The notes beneath the pieces are model-generated. The model made no database searches and had not been told where the DNA came from. It saw only the letters and a list, made by a program, of their open reading frames with translations. Made by a program: the position numbers and the translations under genes. This document shows, piece after piece, positions 58,625-64,000 of a stretch of DNA of 64,000 nt (its first letter is position 1; each line of letters opens with the position of its first letter). The DNA is from Merdibacter massiliensis (lineage in GTDB: Bacteria > Bacillota_I > Bacilli_A > Erysipelotrichales > Erysipelotrichaceae): positions 310,001-374,000 of the forward strand of contig NZ_LT699728.1 of assembly GCF_900155395.1 (NCBI RefSeq). The letters are read 5' to 3'.

Positions 58625-59527
58625 TTACTTCTCTGTTTTTACCACTGCATGTCCACCAAAGCCATTGCGTAATGCGGAAACCACTTTACATGCATAATTA
58701 TCTTCTTCTTGTGAACGATTACGGACCATTAAAGATAAAGCAATAACTGGTACAGGAACTTCAAGTTCCAAGGCAGTTTCCACTGTCCATTTTGCTTCGC
58801 CACTTGCAGCAACAACACCTTTAATATCTGCAAGATCCGGATGTGCTTCAAATTGATTTTGTGCAATTTCCATCAACCATCCACGGATTACTGATCCATG
58901 ATTCCAATTTTTTGCCACCTCTGCCAGGTTATAATCAAATTGGCATTGACGCATAATCTGAAAACCTTCTCCAATAGCCTGCATCATGCCATATTCGATC
59001 CCATTATGTACCATTTTCATAAAATGACCGCTTCCAGCATTACCAGTATAAAGACATCCATCCTCAATAGAGACATCCATAAACACATTTTCTAAATATT
59101 CATATGCCTCATGATCTCCGCCAATCATCAAACAAGCTCCATGTCTAGCTCCTGAAGTACCACCAGATGTACCGACATCTAAAAATTTTAACCCCTTTTC
59201 AGAAAGTATTTGCGCATGACGAATAGAGTCTTTATAATTAGAGTTACCTGCATCAATAACAATATCATTTGACCCTAACAGATTCATTACTTCTTGAATG
59301 CAATCATCTGTTGCTTTTCCAGAAGGAACCATCATCCATATGACCTTTCTTTCTGGGAGTGAATTTACCAAATCCTGGACTGTAGAAACAACTGAAATGC
59401 CTTTTTTAGATAATTCTTCTCTGGCTATTTCATTCAAATCAAAACCGATAACATCATGTCCATGATCCACTAGATTTAATGCAAGATTTGATCCCATCTT
59501 GCCCAAGCCAATGAGTCCAATATTCAT
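58625..59527 (-). CDS. 6-phosphogluconate dehydrogenase, short (decarboxylating) type
   Basis: The 300-aa protein has GLIGLGKMGSNLA for NAD(P) and the catalytic Lys in KMVHNGIEYG. Members of this short form (GntZ/YqeC-like) oxidise 6-phosphogluconate to ribulose 5-phosphate and CO2. The ATG at 59527 follows GGAGG; a start at 59554 is less likely. It is first in the operon. It would suit gluconate taken up and phosphorylated by the mannose-type PTS. Confidence 0.9.
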   Translation of the reverse strand: MNIGLIGLGKMGSNLALNLVDHGHDVIGFDLNEIAREELSKKGISVVSTVQDLVNSLPERKVIWMMVPSGKATDDCIQEVMNLLGSNDIVIDAGNSNYKDSIRHAQILSEKGLKFLDVGTSGGTSGARHGACLMIGGDHEAYEYLENVFMDVSIEDGCLYTGNAGSGHFMKMVHNGIEYGMMQAIGEGFQIMRQCQFDYNLAEVAKNWNHGSVIRGWLMEIAQNQFEAHPDLADIKGVVAASGEAKWTVETALELEVPVPVIALSLMVRNRSQEEDNYACKVVSALRNGFGGHAVVKTEK

Positions 59528-59628
59528 TGGAACACCTCCATTCTTTATCTCCATTATATCGAAAAAAATTTTTTTGTAAAGGCTTTCTTATGAAAAAAAT
59601 ATTTTATTAAGTGTATATCATATAATTA

Positions 59629-59642
59629 TGAAAGCGATTAAT
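59629..59642 (+). promoter_or_regulatory. Candidate catabolite-responsive element
   Basis: TGAAAGCGATTAAT matches the CcpA site pattern TGWAANCGNTNNCA except in the last two positions. It lies between the divergent RpiR gene and the PTS operon, where CcpA could damp the operon when glucose is present. Confidence 0.4.
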
Positions 59643-59751
59643 TATTTTGATGTATTGAAAAAATATGGTTAATCATATGAATCTTTAAATCAAATTTTAT
59701 ATTTTTCATAAACTTCATAAAATAAAAAAATTTCTATTTTCCACCTAGTTT

Positions 59752-59781
59752 TTGTCTACCCTAAATTAGTGGTGTTATAAT
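59752..59781 (+). promoter_or_regulatory. Promoter of the divergent RpiR gene
   Basis: TTGTCT and TATAAT are 18 nt apart, 30 nt upstream of the start codon, with AAGGAGA behind. Confidence 0.75.
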
Positions 59782-59811
59782 ATATATATAGAACAAGAAA
59801 GGAGATGCAGC

Positions 59812-60660
59812 ATGAAAATTCCTATTCCCTTGCAGATCAAATCCATATATTCTGAGTTAAGTCCTACAGAAAAAAGGATTGCCAACTATATTCTTGAAAA
59901 TCCAAAAAAGATTGCTACTTATTCCATTAGCGACCTTTCGTCAGATCTTGGAATTGCCGATTCTACCTTTTTTCAATTCACAAAAAAACTTGGATTTAAA
60001 GGTTTTAAAGATTTTAAGATGACAGCATTGATTGAGCGCAATGATATTGATTTATCTGTTCCTGAAAATATCATGGACAGTGATGATGAGCTAGCTATGG
60101 CTCAAAAAGTATTTGATTCAAATATCAAGACACTCAAGCAAACATCATCTGTCCTTCAAAGAGATGATCTAGCAAAAGCTGCACGATATATTAGTGATGC
60201 AAATAATATTTACTTTTTTGGTGTAGGGGGTTCCGAAATCATTGCGCAAGACGCTTATCACAAGTTTCTACGTTCCCCAACTCGTCCTCATCATGATTCG
60301 GATTATCATATTCAGGTCATGGAATCTTCTTTATTGACGCCAAAAGATGTAGCTATTTGTATTTCACATACTGGAAAATCAAAAGAAACGATTCATCTAG
60401 CCGAAATATCTAAAAATAATGGTGCCAAAGTGATTGTAATTACCAGTCATAAAACCTCTCCATTAGCTAAATTAGGTGATATAGTACTCATTTCCATTTC
60501 TGAAGAAATAGAGTTTCGATCTGAGGCTCTTTCTTCTCGTATTTCTCAGCTTGCCATTTTAGACTCTTTATATGTCATTTTATGCTTCATGCATAAAAAG
60601 CAAGCACAGCAACGTCTTAAGAAAATACGTGCTTCAATATCCACAATTAAAACAAAATAA
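59812..60660 (+). CDS. RpiR-family regulator of the mannose-type PTS operon
   Basis: The 282-aa protein has the HTH_6 domain (1 to about 75, IADSTFFQFTKKLGFKGF) and a SIS domain (about 120 to 260, FFGVGGSEIIAQ and ISHTGKSKETIHLAE). It is transcribed away from the operon across 284 nt and probably senses a phosphorylated sugar acid made by it. It is only distantly similar to the RpiR gene at 10.7 kb. AAGGAGA precedes the ATG; a strong terminator follows. Confidence 0.92.
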   Translation: MKIPIPLQIKSIYSELSPTEKRIANYILENPKKIATYSISDLSSDLGIADSTFFQFTKKLGFKGFKDFKMTALIERNDIDLSVPENIMDSDDELAMAQKVFDSNIKTLKQTSSVLQRDDLAKAARYISDANNIYFFGVGGSEIIAQDAYHKFLRSPTRPHHDSDYHIQVMESSLLTPKDVAICISHTGKSKETIHLAEISKNNGAKVIVITSHKTSPLAKLGDIVLISISEEIEFRSEALSSRISQLAILDSLYVILCFMHKKQAQQRLKKIRASISTIKTK

Positions 60661-60707
60661 AAATGAGCATCTATTTGTATAAGAATGCATAAAGATGCTC
60701 ATTTTCT
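60659..60707 (+). terminator. Terminator after the RpiR gene
   Basis: AAATGAGCATCT pairs with AGATGCTCATTT around a 20-nt loop and is followed by a T run. Confidence 0.9.
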
Positions 60708-60776
60708 TCTGACTATTCTAATTAAATAATATTTTATTTAAATGAAATACGGCACTTTAATATGGAGTTTATTTCA

Positions 60777-62828
60777 TTAATAATTTGTTGCTTGTCTTTC
60801 AAAATAAGCCTTTGGATATCCGCAAGTCGGGCAAACTTCCGGTGCATGGATATCAAAATGCAAATGCCCGCATTGCCGGCACATCCAGAATACTGCGCCT
60901 GCTTCCTTAAAGACTTCCCCATTTTGCAAACGTTCCAGCAGTTTGCGATAGCGGGCTTCATGAGCTTTCTCTACTGCTGCTACTCTTTCAAATTTCTCGG
61001 CCAGATCCATGAACCCTTCTTCCCTTGCTTCCTTGGCCATCCGCTGGTACATATCTGTCCATTCGTCATTTTCACCTTGTGCTGCTGTTTCCAAGTTTTC
61101 CATCGTATCGCCGATGCCATGAAATTCCTGGTACCACATCTTGGCATGTTGCGATTCCTGCTCGGAAGTTTCCATGAAAATGGACGCAATCTGTTCATAA
61201 CCTTCTAGTGTTGCTTTTTGTGCAAAATATTTATATTTATTTCTAGCCTGCGATTCTCCTGCAAATGCCTCCATCAGGTTCTTCTCGGTCTTTGTACCAG
61301 CATATTTGCTGTTTTTCTTGCTTTCTTCCATTATTTCTTCAAACTGTTCTGCCCCCATCTTGCATAATGGACAGACAAAGTCTGGTGCCAAGCTCTCTGC
61401 TTCATGGATATATCCGCAAATTTTACATCTAAATTTTTTCATTGTTTTGTTCTTTCCTTTCACTAGATCTTCACTGCGATCCTTGTAGTTTGTGTGCAGC
61501 ATCTGTTTAGAAAATGCACTTAATGGTTGTTGATAAAAATCCGTATATAATTGTATGATTTCCGGATTGGCATAGGAGGATCTTATCTCTGCTTGCTGAT
61601 CACGCTGATAGAGTCCTTGCATCCTTTTTTTCAATGTATCCGGATCTGCCTGCAGCCATTCTTTAGGCTGTCCTCCACCGCCGATGCAGCCGCCTGGACA
61701 AGTCATCACTTCTATAAAATGATAAGTTTCCTTTGTCTGCTCTATCTGGTGTAGAAATCTTTCTGCACTAGCTGTTGTAGAAATAACTGCAAATTTTACT
61801 TCTATGCCATTGATATCCAATGAACCGGCTTTGACATCATCAAAACCGCGGACCGGCTGTAAATTCAACAATTCTGCTTTTGGTTCTTTGTTGGTCATTA
61901 TGTGATAAGCGCTGCGCAAAGCAGCTTCCATGACACCGCCGCTGTTGCCAAACAAAATTCCGCCCCCGGAAGCCTGCGACATCAAAGGGTCATATGTATC
62001 GTCTGGCAGCGATGAAAAATCGATATTTTCTTCTTTTGCCCATTTTGCTAGTTCCCGTGCGGTGATCACATGATCCATATCTTTTATCTCAGGTAATTCC
62101 AGATATGTTTTGGCATCATTGAGTTCTTCACGGCGTATCTCAAATTTTTTAGCAGTACACGGCGTCAAGGCGACATTGATGATTCGTTCAGGATCAATGC
62201 CCATCTTTTTAGCAAAATAGCTTTTTACTGTTGGTCCCTGCATGCCGATTGGGCTCTTTGCAGTGGATAAATTTGGAATATATTGCGGTTTAAATGTCTC
62301 CACATATTTGATCCATGCCGGGCAGCAGCTTGTAAATTGCGGGAGTGTCCCGTTATTTTGGATTCTTTCCACCAATTCATTCGCTTCTTCCATAATAGTC
62401 AAGTCAGCCGCAAAATTTGTATCCAAGACATAATCAAACCCCAGTTTGCGCAACAGCGCTACCATCTTCCCCTCAACAAAAGAACCTGGTTCCATCTGAA
62501 AGGCCTCTCCCAAAGATACGCGAACAGATGGAGATGTGGATACGACCACAATTTTATCTTTATCATGGATCCACTTTTTTACTTTTTGATATTCATCTCT
62601 TTCATGAATACTGTCTGTTGGACAAACGTTTGCACATTGTCCGCAATGAATGCAGATCGCCATGTCGTTTGTATCTTCCAGCGAATAAAAGCCATGTACA
62701 TGGATCTTTTCCTGGCAGACCAGCTTGCATTGTCCGCACTTGATACATAAGCTTTCATCTCTGACAATTGATGGATTATCTTCTTCAATGGCTACACGAA
62801 CATCCAAAGGCAAATGCTTACTCATCAT
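60777..62828 (-). CDS. [FeFe]-hydrogenase fused to rubredoxin-rubrerythrin-rubredoxin
   Basis: One 683-aa frame joins two enzymes. Residues 1 to about 455 are a group A hydrogenase: two ferredoxin clusters (Cys28, 31, 34, 38; Cys59, 62, 65, 69), then the H-cluster motifs TSCCPAW (Cys168; proton-relay Cys169), PCTAKKFE (Cys224), and [12 protein letters not shown] (Cys377, Cys381). Residues 463 to 683 are a rubredoxin (Cys468, 471, 486, 489), the rubrerythrin diiron helices (Glu520, Glu558-x2-His561, Glu620-x2-His623), and a second rubredoxin (Cys650, 653, 666, 669). It predicts hydrogen-driven reduction of peroxide in the cytoplasm. The ATG at 61442, at the fusion point, is a possible second start. 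No cluster is missing. The start overlaps the Fur-family stop by 11 nt. Confidence 0.94.
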
Positions 62829-63222
62829 TGAGCTCCTCTCTTTCTTTTTTCATGCAATCACTACATAATCCAAAGAATTCGATCGAATGCCCCTCAACCA
62901 GAAAATCACCCATTTGTCTTTGTAACTCATCAAATTGTGCTTGATAAAGCAGGTCTGCATCTTGAATCTTCCCGCAACGCCGGCAACGCATATGATAATG
63001 TGCTGGATGCTTTATTTCATAATGTACTTCTCGATCTTGTGTCATCACTTTCATCACTTCATGATCTTCACATGCTGCACTTAAGATACGAAAGACAGTG
63101 GCTTTTGAAATACTTGGATAATCTTTATGAACACGCTCATAAACCTGAGAAGCACTGGGATGATCATACATTTCCTTTAAAGTATGCAATACGATCTGCC
63201 TCTGCAAAGTATTCCTTTTCAT
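62818..63222 (-). CDS. Fur-family regulator (PerR-like)
   Basis: The 134-aa winged-helix regulator has [11 protein letters not shown] as recognition helix, [11 protein letters not shown] with the first structural zinc pair (Cys80, Cys83), and CSDC (Cys120, Cys123) with the second. The position matching the PerR metal Asp is Glu69 (VHYEIKH), so peroxide sensing by metal-catalysed oxidation is uncertain. It is first in the operon with the hydrogenase-rubrerythrin fusion. AGGAGA precedes the start, with a Fur/Per-like box about 25 nt upstream. Confidence 0.9.
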
Positions 63223-63247
63223 TTCTCCTCTTCCTCTACTCTCTTAT

Positions 63248-63262
63248 TGATAATGATTACTA
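63248..63262. promoter_or_regulatory. Fur/PerR-type box
   Basis: TGATAAT-G-ATTACTA matches the 7-1-7 Fur box TGATAATNATTATCA at all but two positions. It lies between the -10 box and the start codon, where binding would stop transcription of the operon by its own first product. Confidence 0.65.
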
Positions 63263-63266
63263 TTTA

Positions 63267-63295
63267 ACAATAAATTTTTATAGAGCGGAAGTCAA
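63267..63295 (-). promoter_or_regulatory. Promoter of the Fur-hydrogenase operon
   Basis: On the minus strand TTGACT (63290-63295) and TATTGT (63267-63272) are 17 nt apart, just upstream of the Fur-type box. Confidence 0.65.
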
Positions 63296-63618
63296 TTCAT
63301 CTTCAGAAACATTACAGAAATGTTATGTATCTATTTTTAATGTCTTCATTGCAATCATCAGTCATATTGCTTTCCTATTCTGCTTTTATCTCTTCGGCCA
63401 CTTTCAAATACCTTTTCAGCAATAATTTGTTGTTTGGCTTTCGACCAAGCGTTTTTTTACCACATCTGCACAAATTCAATGTTTGAATTATTTTTAACAT
63501 TTTACAACAAAACGAACAGTTGACTATCATTCAGCGGTTTTATTTATATTTACATTTTAGGATTTATCATGCATTCTTCTTTCATGTATCTATCGTTTGA
63601 TCATCTGCTTATAGCAAT
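63296..63618. other. Intergenic region without recognised gene
   Basis: About 320 nt of AT-rich sequence with scattered stops in all frames. A plus-strand frame that reaches into it is the antisense of the Fur-family gene and was not accepted. I see no repeat or RNA structure of note. Confidence 0.5.
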
Positions 63619-63652
63619 AAAAAAGAAGGAGAATATTTTTTCTTCCTTCTCT
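63619..63652 (-). terminator. Terminator of the 3'-end flavoenzyme gene
   Basis: On the minus strand AGAAGGA and TCCTTCT form a stem around an AT-rich loop, followed by TTTTTTATT, 37 nt after the stop. Confidence 0.7.
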
Positions 63653-63688
63653 TAAAATTCAAAGCAAAACATTAGATATATGATCGAT

Positions 63689-64000
63689 CTAGATATCTAA
63701 GGCTGCATAATGTCCCCAATAGACAGCATTTGTAATCGTAGATACTTTCTCTGCATCTCCAATCACACGTACAAAAGGAGCACTGTTCCATAATGCTTCG
63801 ACAGTTGTCTTATTTGAACGCTGTCCTAAGGCACATATGATGCTCGTACCTGGAACAAGAACTTCCTGATGATCCGATTTTTCGCAAATGACGCCTTGAT
63901 CAGTAATTTCCATCCCTCTATATCCTGTATGAACCGTTGCATACTTTTCAACTTCATTTAACAGCAAAGGTCGATGACGAACATTAGCATCAACTGCTAG
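63689..64000 (-). CDS. FAD-dependent oxidoreductase, C-terminal part (runs off window)
   Basis: The frame is open to the window edge; only the last 103 residues are seen. They match the end of OYE-type NADH:flavin oxidoreductases: VPGTSIICALGQRSN and the FAD-closing motif VIGDAEKVSTITNAVYWGHYAALDI-like. Related proteins reduce enoates or dienoyl-CoA esters. It is therefore probably a second member of the family seen at the left end of the window, though the Fe-S motif lies outside the window. Confidence 0.75.
   Translation of the reverse strand, partial: LAVDANVRHRPLLLNEVEKYATVHTGYRGMEITDQGVICEKSDHQEVLVPGTSIICALGQRSNKTTVEALWNSAPFVRVIGDAEKVSTITNAVYWGHYAALDI

Follow-up and report, generated by a model that had tools for sequence, protein, structure and literature searches.

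The window, a 64,000-nucleotide stretch of the Merdibacter massiliensis genome, carries on its minus strand an open reading frame of 683 codons with zero internal stops, which we call hydR. On its product, Pfam placed two 4Fe-4S motifs at residues ~21-74, Fe_hyd_lg_C at 92-385 (E 3e-88) followed by Fe_hyd_SSU at 397-451, RUBY_RBDX in two stretches (the best at 466-497) and Rubrerythrin at 516-631 (2e-26). The chain also scored above the curated cut-off of the group A [FeFe]-hydrogenase model TIGR02512 (462.5 vs 405.95 bits) and above that of the rubrerythrin model NF045767 (239 vs 200 bits). Alignment placed all metal ligands: C28/31/34/38 and C59/62/65/69 for the F-clusters (eight cysteines kept in all aligned hydrogenase rows), C169/224/377/381 for the H-cluster, C468/471/486/489 for rubredoxin 1, E525, E558, H561, E586, E589, E620 and H623 for the diiron site, and C650/653/666/669 for rubredoxin 2. 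The H-cluster motifs read TSCCPAW (L1) and TPCTAKKFE (L2), the latter matching the L2 motif TPCTAKKxE of C. pasteurianum hydrogenase II (CpII). The initial annotation had described a full group A hydrogenase, with all H-cluster cysteines and two ferredoxin clusters, running on in one polypeptide into rubredoxin, rubrerythrin and a second rubredoxin, and each of these elements was borne out.

Features of the hydR locus in the window, with the basis of each assignment
Feature	Position	Strand	Basis
hydR, 683-aa hydrogenase-rubredoxin-rubrerythrin-rubredoxin chimera	60777..62828	-	ORF list, Pfam, NCBIfam, alignment, AlphaFold2
F-domain, two [4Fe-4S] motifs, residues 18-85	62574..62777	-	Pfam Fer4; alignment of eight Cys
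H-cluster domain, residues 92-451	61476..62555	-	Pfam, motif table, invariant catalytic residues
Hydrogenase/rubredoxin 1 junction, residues 452-462	61443..61475	-	Junction inspection across fusions
Shine-Dalgarno-like AAAGGAAAG before internal ATG, weak	61452..61460	-	AGGA core ~12 nt away
Internal in-frame ATG (Met463), candidate second start for a 221-aa Rd-Rbr-Rd	61440..61442	-	Fusion comparison
Rubredoxin-like domain 1, residues 463-500	61329..61442	-	Pfam PF21349
Rubrerythrin diiron domain, residues 508-640	60909..61307	-	Pfam, NCBIfam, alignment to solved rubrerythrins
Rubredoxin-like domain 2, residues 641-683	60780..60908	-	Second Pfam stretch and ligand alignment
Fur/PerR-like regulator gene, overlapping the hydR start by 11 nt	62818..63222	-	Pfam FUR; 2fe3 match
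Fur/PerR-type palindrome TAGTAATCATTATCA (- strand), 2 mismatches to TGATAATNATTATCA	63248..63262	.	Motif search
Sigma-70-like promoter TTGACT-17-TATTGT, directly before the palindrome	63267..63295	-	Consensus match only

An AlphaFold2 model of HydR built on 26 related sequences had a mean pLDDT of 87.4 and a pTM of 0.70, with each module confident and the lowest confidence in the link from rubredoxin 1 to the rubrerythrin (residues 501-505). In structure comparison, its fold resembled the CpI, D. desulfuricans and HydABC hydrogenases. Alignment of the rubrerythrin part to 1ryt and 1b71 left a 13-residue gap opposite a loop of D. vulgaris rubrerythrin. An assembly or frameshift artefact was ruled out because the same open frame occurs in four other genomes: the unbroken domain order was found in G084 (82% identical) and in the more distant G001, G071 and L001, a contig labelled Anaerostipes.

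The initial annotation had also coupled hydR physically to a Fur-type regulator, and the overlap of the two genes confirms this. The best solved match of the regulator is B. subtilis PerR (2fe3), in a gap-free alignment that keeps PerR H37, H91, H93 and D104 as H21, H75, H77 and D88, replaces PerR D85 with glutamate (E69), and retains the four zinc cysteines C80, C83, C120 and C123. Since its best score against the NCBIfam PerR models (85.9 vs 180 bits) fell below the equivalog cut-offs, we call the protein PerR-like rather than PerR. The palindrome upstream is weak as a two-mismatch match on its own and not significant by count in the window; a similar palindrome lies in the same place at L089 (4 mismatches) and at the distant Fur-HydA-Rbr locus L047 (1 mismatch). 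Rfam found no RNA elements at 59000-64000. Two further genes lie nearby. The stretch at 63689-64000 (minus strand), which continues in L154:5690-7636, is the C-terminal end of a 648-aa flavoenzyme and there weakly matches the models for BaiCD and for the long form of bilirubin reductase, and a gene for an RpiR-type SIS-domain regulator (59812-60660, plus strand) converges on hydR from the opposite side.

Partner modules and the internal start in related fusions

Relatives of HydR within one CpII-like hydrogenase clade carry their partner modules in many arrangements: Fur-HydA (L092, L093), Fur-Rbr-HydA (L003), Fur-HydA-Rbr with overlapping frames (L047), HydA-Rbr-Rd (L095), HydA followed by between one and three rubredoxins (L098-L104), rubredoxin-HydA (L096, L065, L079), and the full HydR (L081, L089, L090, L091, L001). 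Besides its ties to rubrerythrin or rubredoxin, the hydrogenase of these relatives is repeatedly linked to a Fur-family gene. Because fused forms are mixed with unfused ones in the hydrogenase tree, the fusions appear to have been made or lost repeatedly. A CpII-like hydrogenase followed by two or three tandem rubredoxins and no rubrerythrin is encoded at L098, L099, L101, L102 and L104; the rubredoxin stands at the N-terminus, not the C-terminus, of the hydrogenase at L065, L079 and L096; and at L213 (G001:C42:12500-15000), another reductase-rubrerythrin fusion, a glutamate-synthase-like flavin domain was read in frame with an Rd-Rbr-Rd module.

A methionine stands at the exact start of the first rubredoxin in all five full fusions, preceded by a Shine-Dalgarno-like sequence that is strong in L090, L091 and L001 and weak in the hydR of the window, where it also lies far from the ATG (rank 6 among 26 in-frame ATGs). 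None of the inspected hydrogenase-rubredoxin-only fusions has this methionine, and most of the free-standing Rd-Rbr-Rd genes that we read start at the equivalent methionine after a similar site. Those in the family genomes (L207-L212) share with hydR the module, its M-x-K-W/F-x-C start and the Shine-Dalgarno region, but no hydrogenase is joined to them. The simplest reading of these sequences is that hydA was extended in frame into a rubrerythrin gene that was still intact and kept its start site. Because the start of the free gene is kept in the fusion, a second, free Rd-Rbr-Rd product is possible.

Hydrogenases in genomes lacking HydE, HydF and HydG

All three maturases, HydE, HydF and HydG, have been reported to be essential (PMC6212873). 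Three [FeFe]-hydrogenase genes lie in the host genome, which is 99.85% complete at 2.47 Mb in 23 contigs: hydR, a second group A gene (C17) and a group B-like gene (C22). Profile searches of this genome returned no HydG at E<=0.001 and no HydE at E<=1e-20, and the best HydF match (87 bits, TIGR03918) covered a generic GTPase domain only. Among its fourteen radical-SAM profile matches there was no HydE or HydG candidate; by reading, they were assigned to MiaB, HemW, RimO, PflA, MtaB, RlmN, YhcC, YgiQ and NrdG types, the remainder being a few weak or chance matches. Since the host lacks HydE, HydF and HydG, the H2-splitting half of HydR cannot mature by the known pathway.

The other two hydrogenase genes have surroundings and motifs of their own. 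The second group A gene (G000:C17:86207-87505; L150:7599-9539) lies beside a gene for a 610-aa flavoprotein whose parts resemble NuoF and GltD, and its product has the motifs TSCCPGW, MPCVAKKQE and CPGGCSGGGG. The group B-like gene (G000:C22:34318-34974; L085; L151:7743-9263) encodes 506 aa with GPCAAKKLE and CPGGCVAGAG.

The gap extends to the host's family, where hydrogenase matches occur in 109 of 196 genomes, HydE in 16, HydF in 17 and HydG in 11-12. When only hydrogenase-bearing family genomes that are at least 95% complete were counted, 45 of 53 had none of the three maturases and 6 of 53 had all three; the single-contig genomes G006, G031 and G125 lack all of them as well. Of the 395 genomes of the host's class, 210 have a group A hydrogenase that scores above cut-off, and 25 have HydF. 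The same HydG search succeeded in 6/6 carriers of related hydrogenases from clostridia or Veillonella, and it found HydG in 0/12 other MAGs (11 labelled Bacilli/Mollicutes, one Clostridia); these MAGs are small and may be incomplete. Within the family, HydG types differ in score. A literature search that covered few subscription journals found no published report of bacteria without HydE/F/G in this lineage. A separate, class-wide clade of NADH-type HydA (L110-L114, L169-L198, L226-L304) carries TSCSPGW, that is, a serine at the position of the CpI cubane ligand C300 (assigned by residue spacing to C300 and not to the proton donor C299); among the NADH-type hydrogenases of the class, this serine is commoner in HydF-negative genomes (55 of 81) than in HydF-positive ones (13 of 34).

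The H-cluster domain of HydR itself appears to be maintained. Between the hydR of the window and its 82%-identical relative, both from maturase-less genomes (the relative's ~78% complete), Ka/Ks for this domain was ~0.045 with Ks near saturation. Twelve catalytic positions were invariant in 19/19 maturase-negative in-family relatives, against 88 of 441 columns invariant overall; they include E148, E151, R155, C168 (the equivalent of the CpI proton donor C299), S188, K227 (CpI K358) and all four cubane cysteines. Because the proton-path and pocket residues are invariant and purifying selection is strong, the members of the HydR clade look like functional hydrogenases, although their hosts should be unable to produce them. 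Membership in an electron-bifurcating family that has lost the H-cluster was ruled out for the HydR clade, which keeps all the ligands.

The intact invariant sites, the strong purifying selection and the many maturase-less genomes together raise the possibility, which we put forward tentatively, that HydR and other [FeFe]-hydrogenases of the class are active and obtain the H-cluster without HydE/F/G, either through some unknown pathway that replaces these or by precursor uptake. It is rather unlikely that the hydrogenase half instead contains the [4Fe-4S] cubane only and serves as a wire from ferredoxin or another donor, which would make HydR a ferredoxin-dependent peroxide reductase. This would fit the absence of the maturases from the host and from most high-quality hydrogenase-bearing genomes of its family, and [FeFe]-hydrogenases produced in E. 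coli without maturases are cubane-only apo-enzymes (PMC6984386). However, five of the residues that are invariant in all 19 relatives (C168, E148, E151, S188 and K227) serve H2 chemistry only, and the purified C. perfringens homologue, CperHydR, did not reduce H2O2 when blocked with CO, in an assay in which no ferredoxin was offered (PMC11926857).

The internal start could also mean that the hydrogenase half acts as a leader that can be dispensed with, having the 221-aa Rd-Rbr-Rd as the main product and the full-length chain a minor one. While the retention of this start in 5/5 fusions, with a strong upstream site in three, and its equivalence to the starts of free-standing genes would agree with such an arrangement, the weak and distant site in the window and the strong purifying selection on the H-domain make it quite improbable. 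Even harder to credit is that the maturases are present but were missed through an assembly gap or extreme divergence, leaving a wholly ordinary HydR: the host genome is a 23-contig draft and the family's HydG types vary in score, but such a failure would have to hit each of the three genes, the three single-contig genomes lack them too, the same search recovers HydG in every clostridial or Veillonella carrier, and the radical-SAM inventory leaves no candidate for HydE or HydG.

The larger point is the maturase gap: HydE/F/G are regarded as indispensable, yet they are all absent from 45 of the 53 good hydrogenase-bearing genomes of the family. Either there is a second bacterial route to the H-cluster, or many gut-type "hydrogenases" do something else; such hydrogenases have been used to predict H2 production, for RF39/RFN20 (PMC7301438). 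How, or whether, the H-cluster is assembled in maturase-less hosts is the most interesting question that HydR raises.

Proposed function and published HydR proteins

The chimeric architecture has already been described. Taylor et al. (JACS 2025, PMC11926857) expressed and purified a Clostridium perfringens chimera that they named HydR, crediting the prediction of such chimeras to Calusinska et al. The hedge in the initial annotation that the architecture might not be unique was therefore well placed: uniqueness is ruled out, and, judged by its domain order, the present protein joins a known class. Purification, spectroscopy and assay of CperHydR revealed all expected cofactors and an enzyme extremely biased toward oxidising H2, which reduced H2O2 in an H2-dependent manner at about 442 per min; under CO instead of H2, no significant reduction occurred (PMC11926857).

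By analogy with CperHydR, the function that we consider most likely, and moderately probable, for HydR is that of an H2-dependent H2O2 reductase under Fur/PerR-type control. Its H-cluster domain, which belongs to group A and to the CpII type with a bias toward H2 oxidation, would take electrons from H2 and pass them through the two [4Fe-4S] clusters and rubredoxin to the diiron site of the rubrerythrin, which would reduce H2O2 to water. HydR probably forms homodimers via the rubrerythrin module, and the internal start may additionally yield some free rubredoxin-rubrerythrin-rubredoxin. The H-cluster would have to be obtained without the known HydE/F/G. Because hydR stands second in an operon, overlapping the gene for a Fur/PerR-like sensor of peroxide or iron, we propose that HydR serves this anaerobic, gut-type bacterium as an enzyme against oxidative stress.

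This is the electron path from H2 through the F-clusters and rubredoxin to peroxide that the initial annotation had suggested. Its reaction chemistry has been demonstrated for the homologue, since CperHydR was purified and assayed (PMC11926857), and the ligands for it are present here; the step in which electrons are taken from hydrogen is unproven in this host, because known maturation is impossible in the absence of HydE/F/G. For HydR of M. massiliensis, the case is built on its sequence and ligands, the operon overlap, the conserved palindrome and the relatives, whereas the cofactors, the H2-oxidation bias and H2-driven peroxide reduction were established for CperHydR; we infer that the same activity and a regulation by peroxide apply here.

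HydR, characterised from one pathogen, is thereby extended to another Bacillota lineage, and the operon, the candidate operator and the fusion history add evidence for a stress role. CperHydR has the same chain order of two [4Fe-4S] motifs, H-domain, rubredoxin, diiron rubrerythrin and rubredoxin, and its L2 motif as printed (PMC11926857) is identical to that found here. By its published description, it likewise lacks the 13-residue loop, by which monomeric and dimeric rubrerythrins are told apart in the discussion of PMC11926857, so that both would be of the dimer type. In contrast with CperHydR, the present protein occurs in a host without HydE/F/G, and its gene overlaps a Fur/PerR-like gene, while PMC11926857 mentions neither PerR nor an operon.

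The same Rd-Rbr-Rd tail order stands behind a 2x[4Fe-4S] hydrogenase of the M2 type (sub-class naming of Calusinska 2010 and Meyer 2007, redrawn in PMC6984386), and Land et al. 2019 (PMC6984386) drew this tail among the [FeFe]-hydrogenase sub-classes that they screened. Its representative was screened for H2 production only, in a survey where all enzymes except Sm-HydA and Tam-HydA had none or trace activity (PMC6984386). CpII shares TPCTAKK at L2, which has been tied to H2-oxidation bias, but it differs from HydR in having no rubrerythrin and in being linked to nitrogen fixation (PMC11926857).
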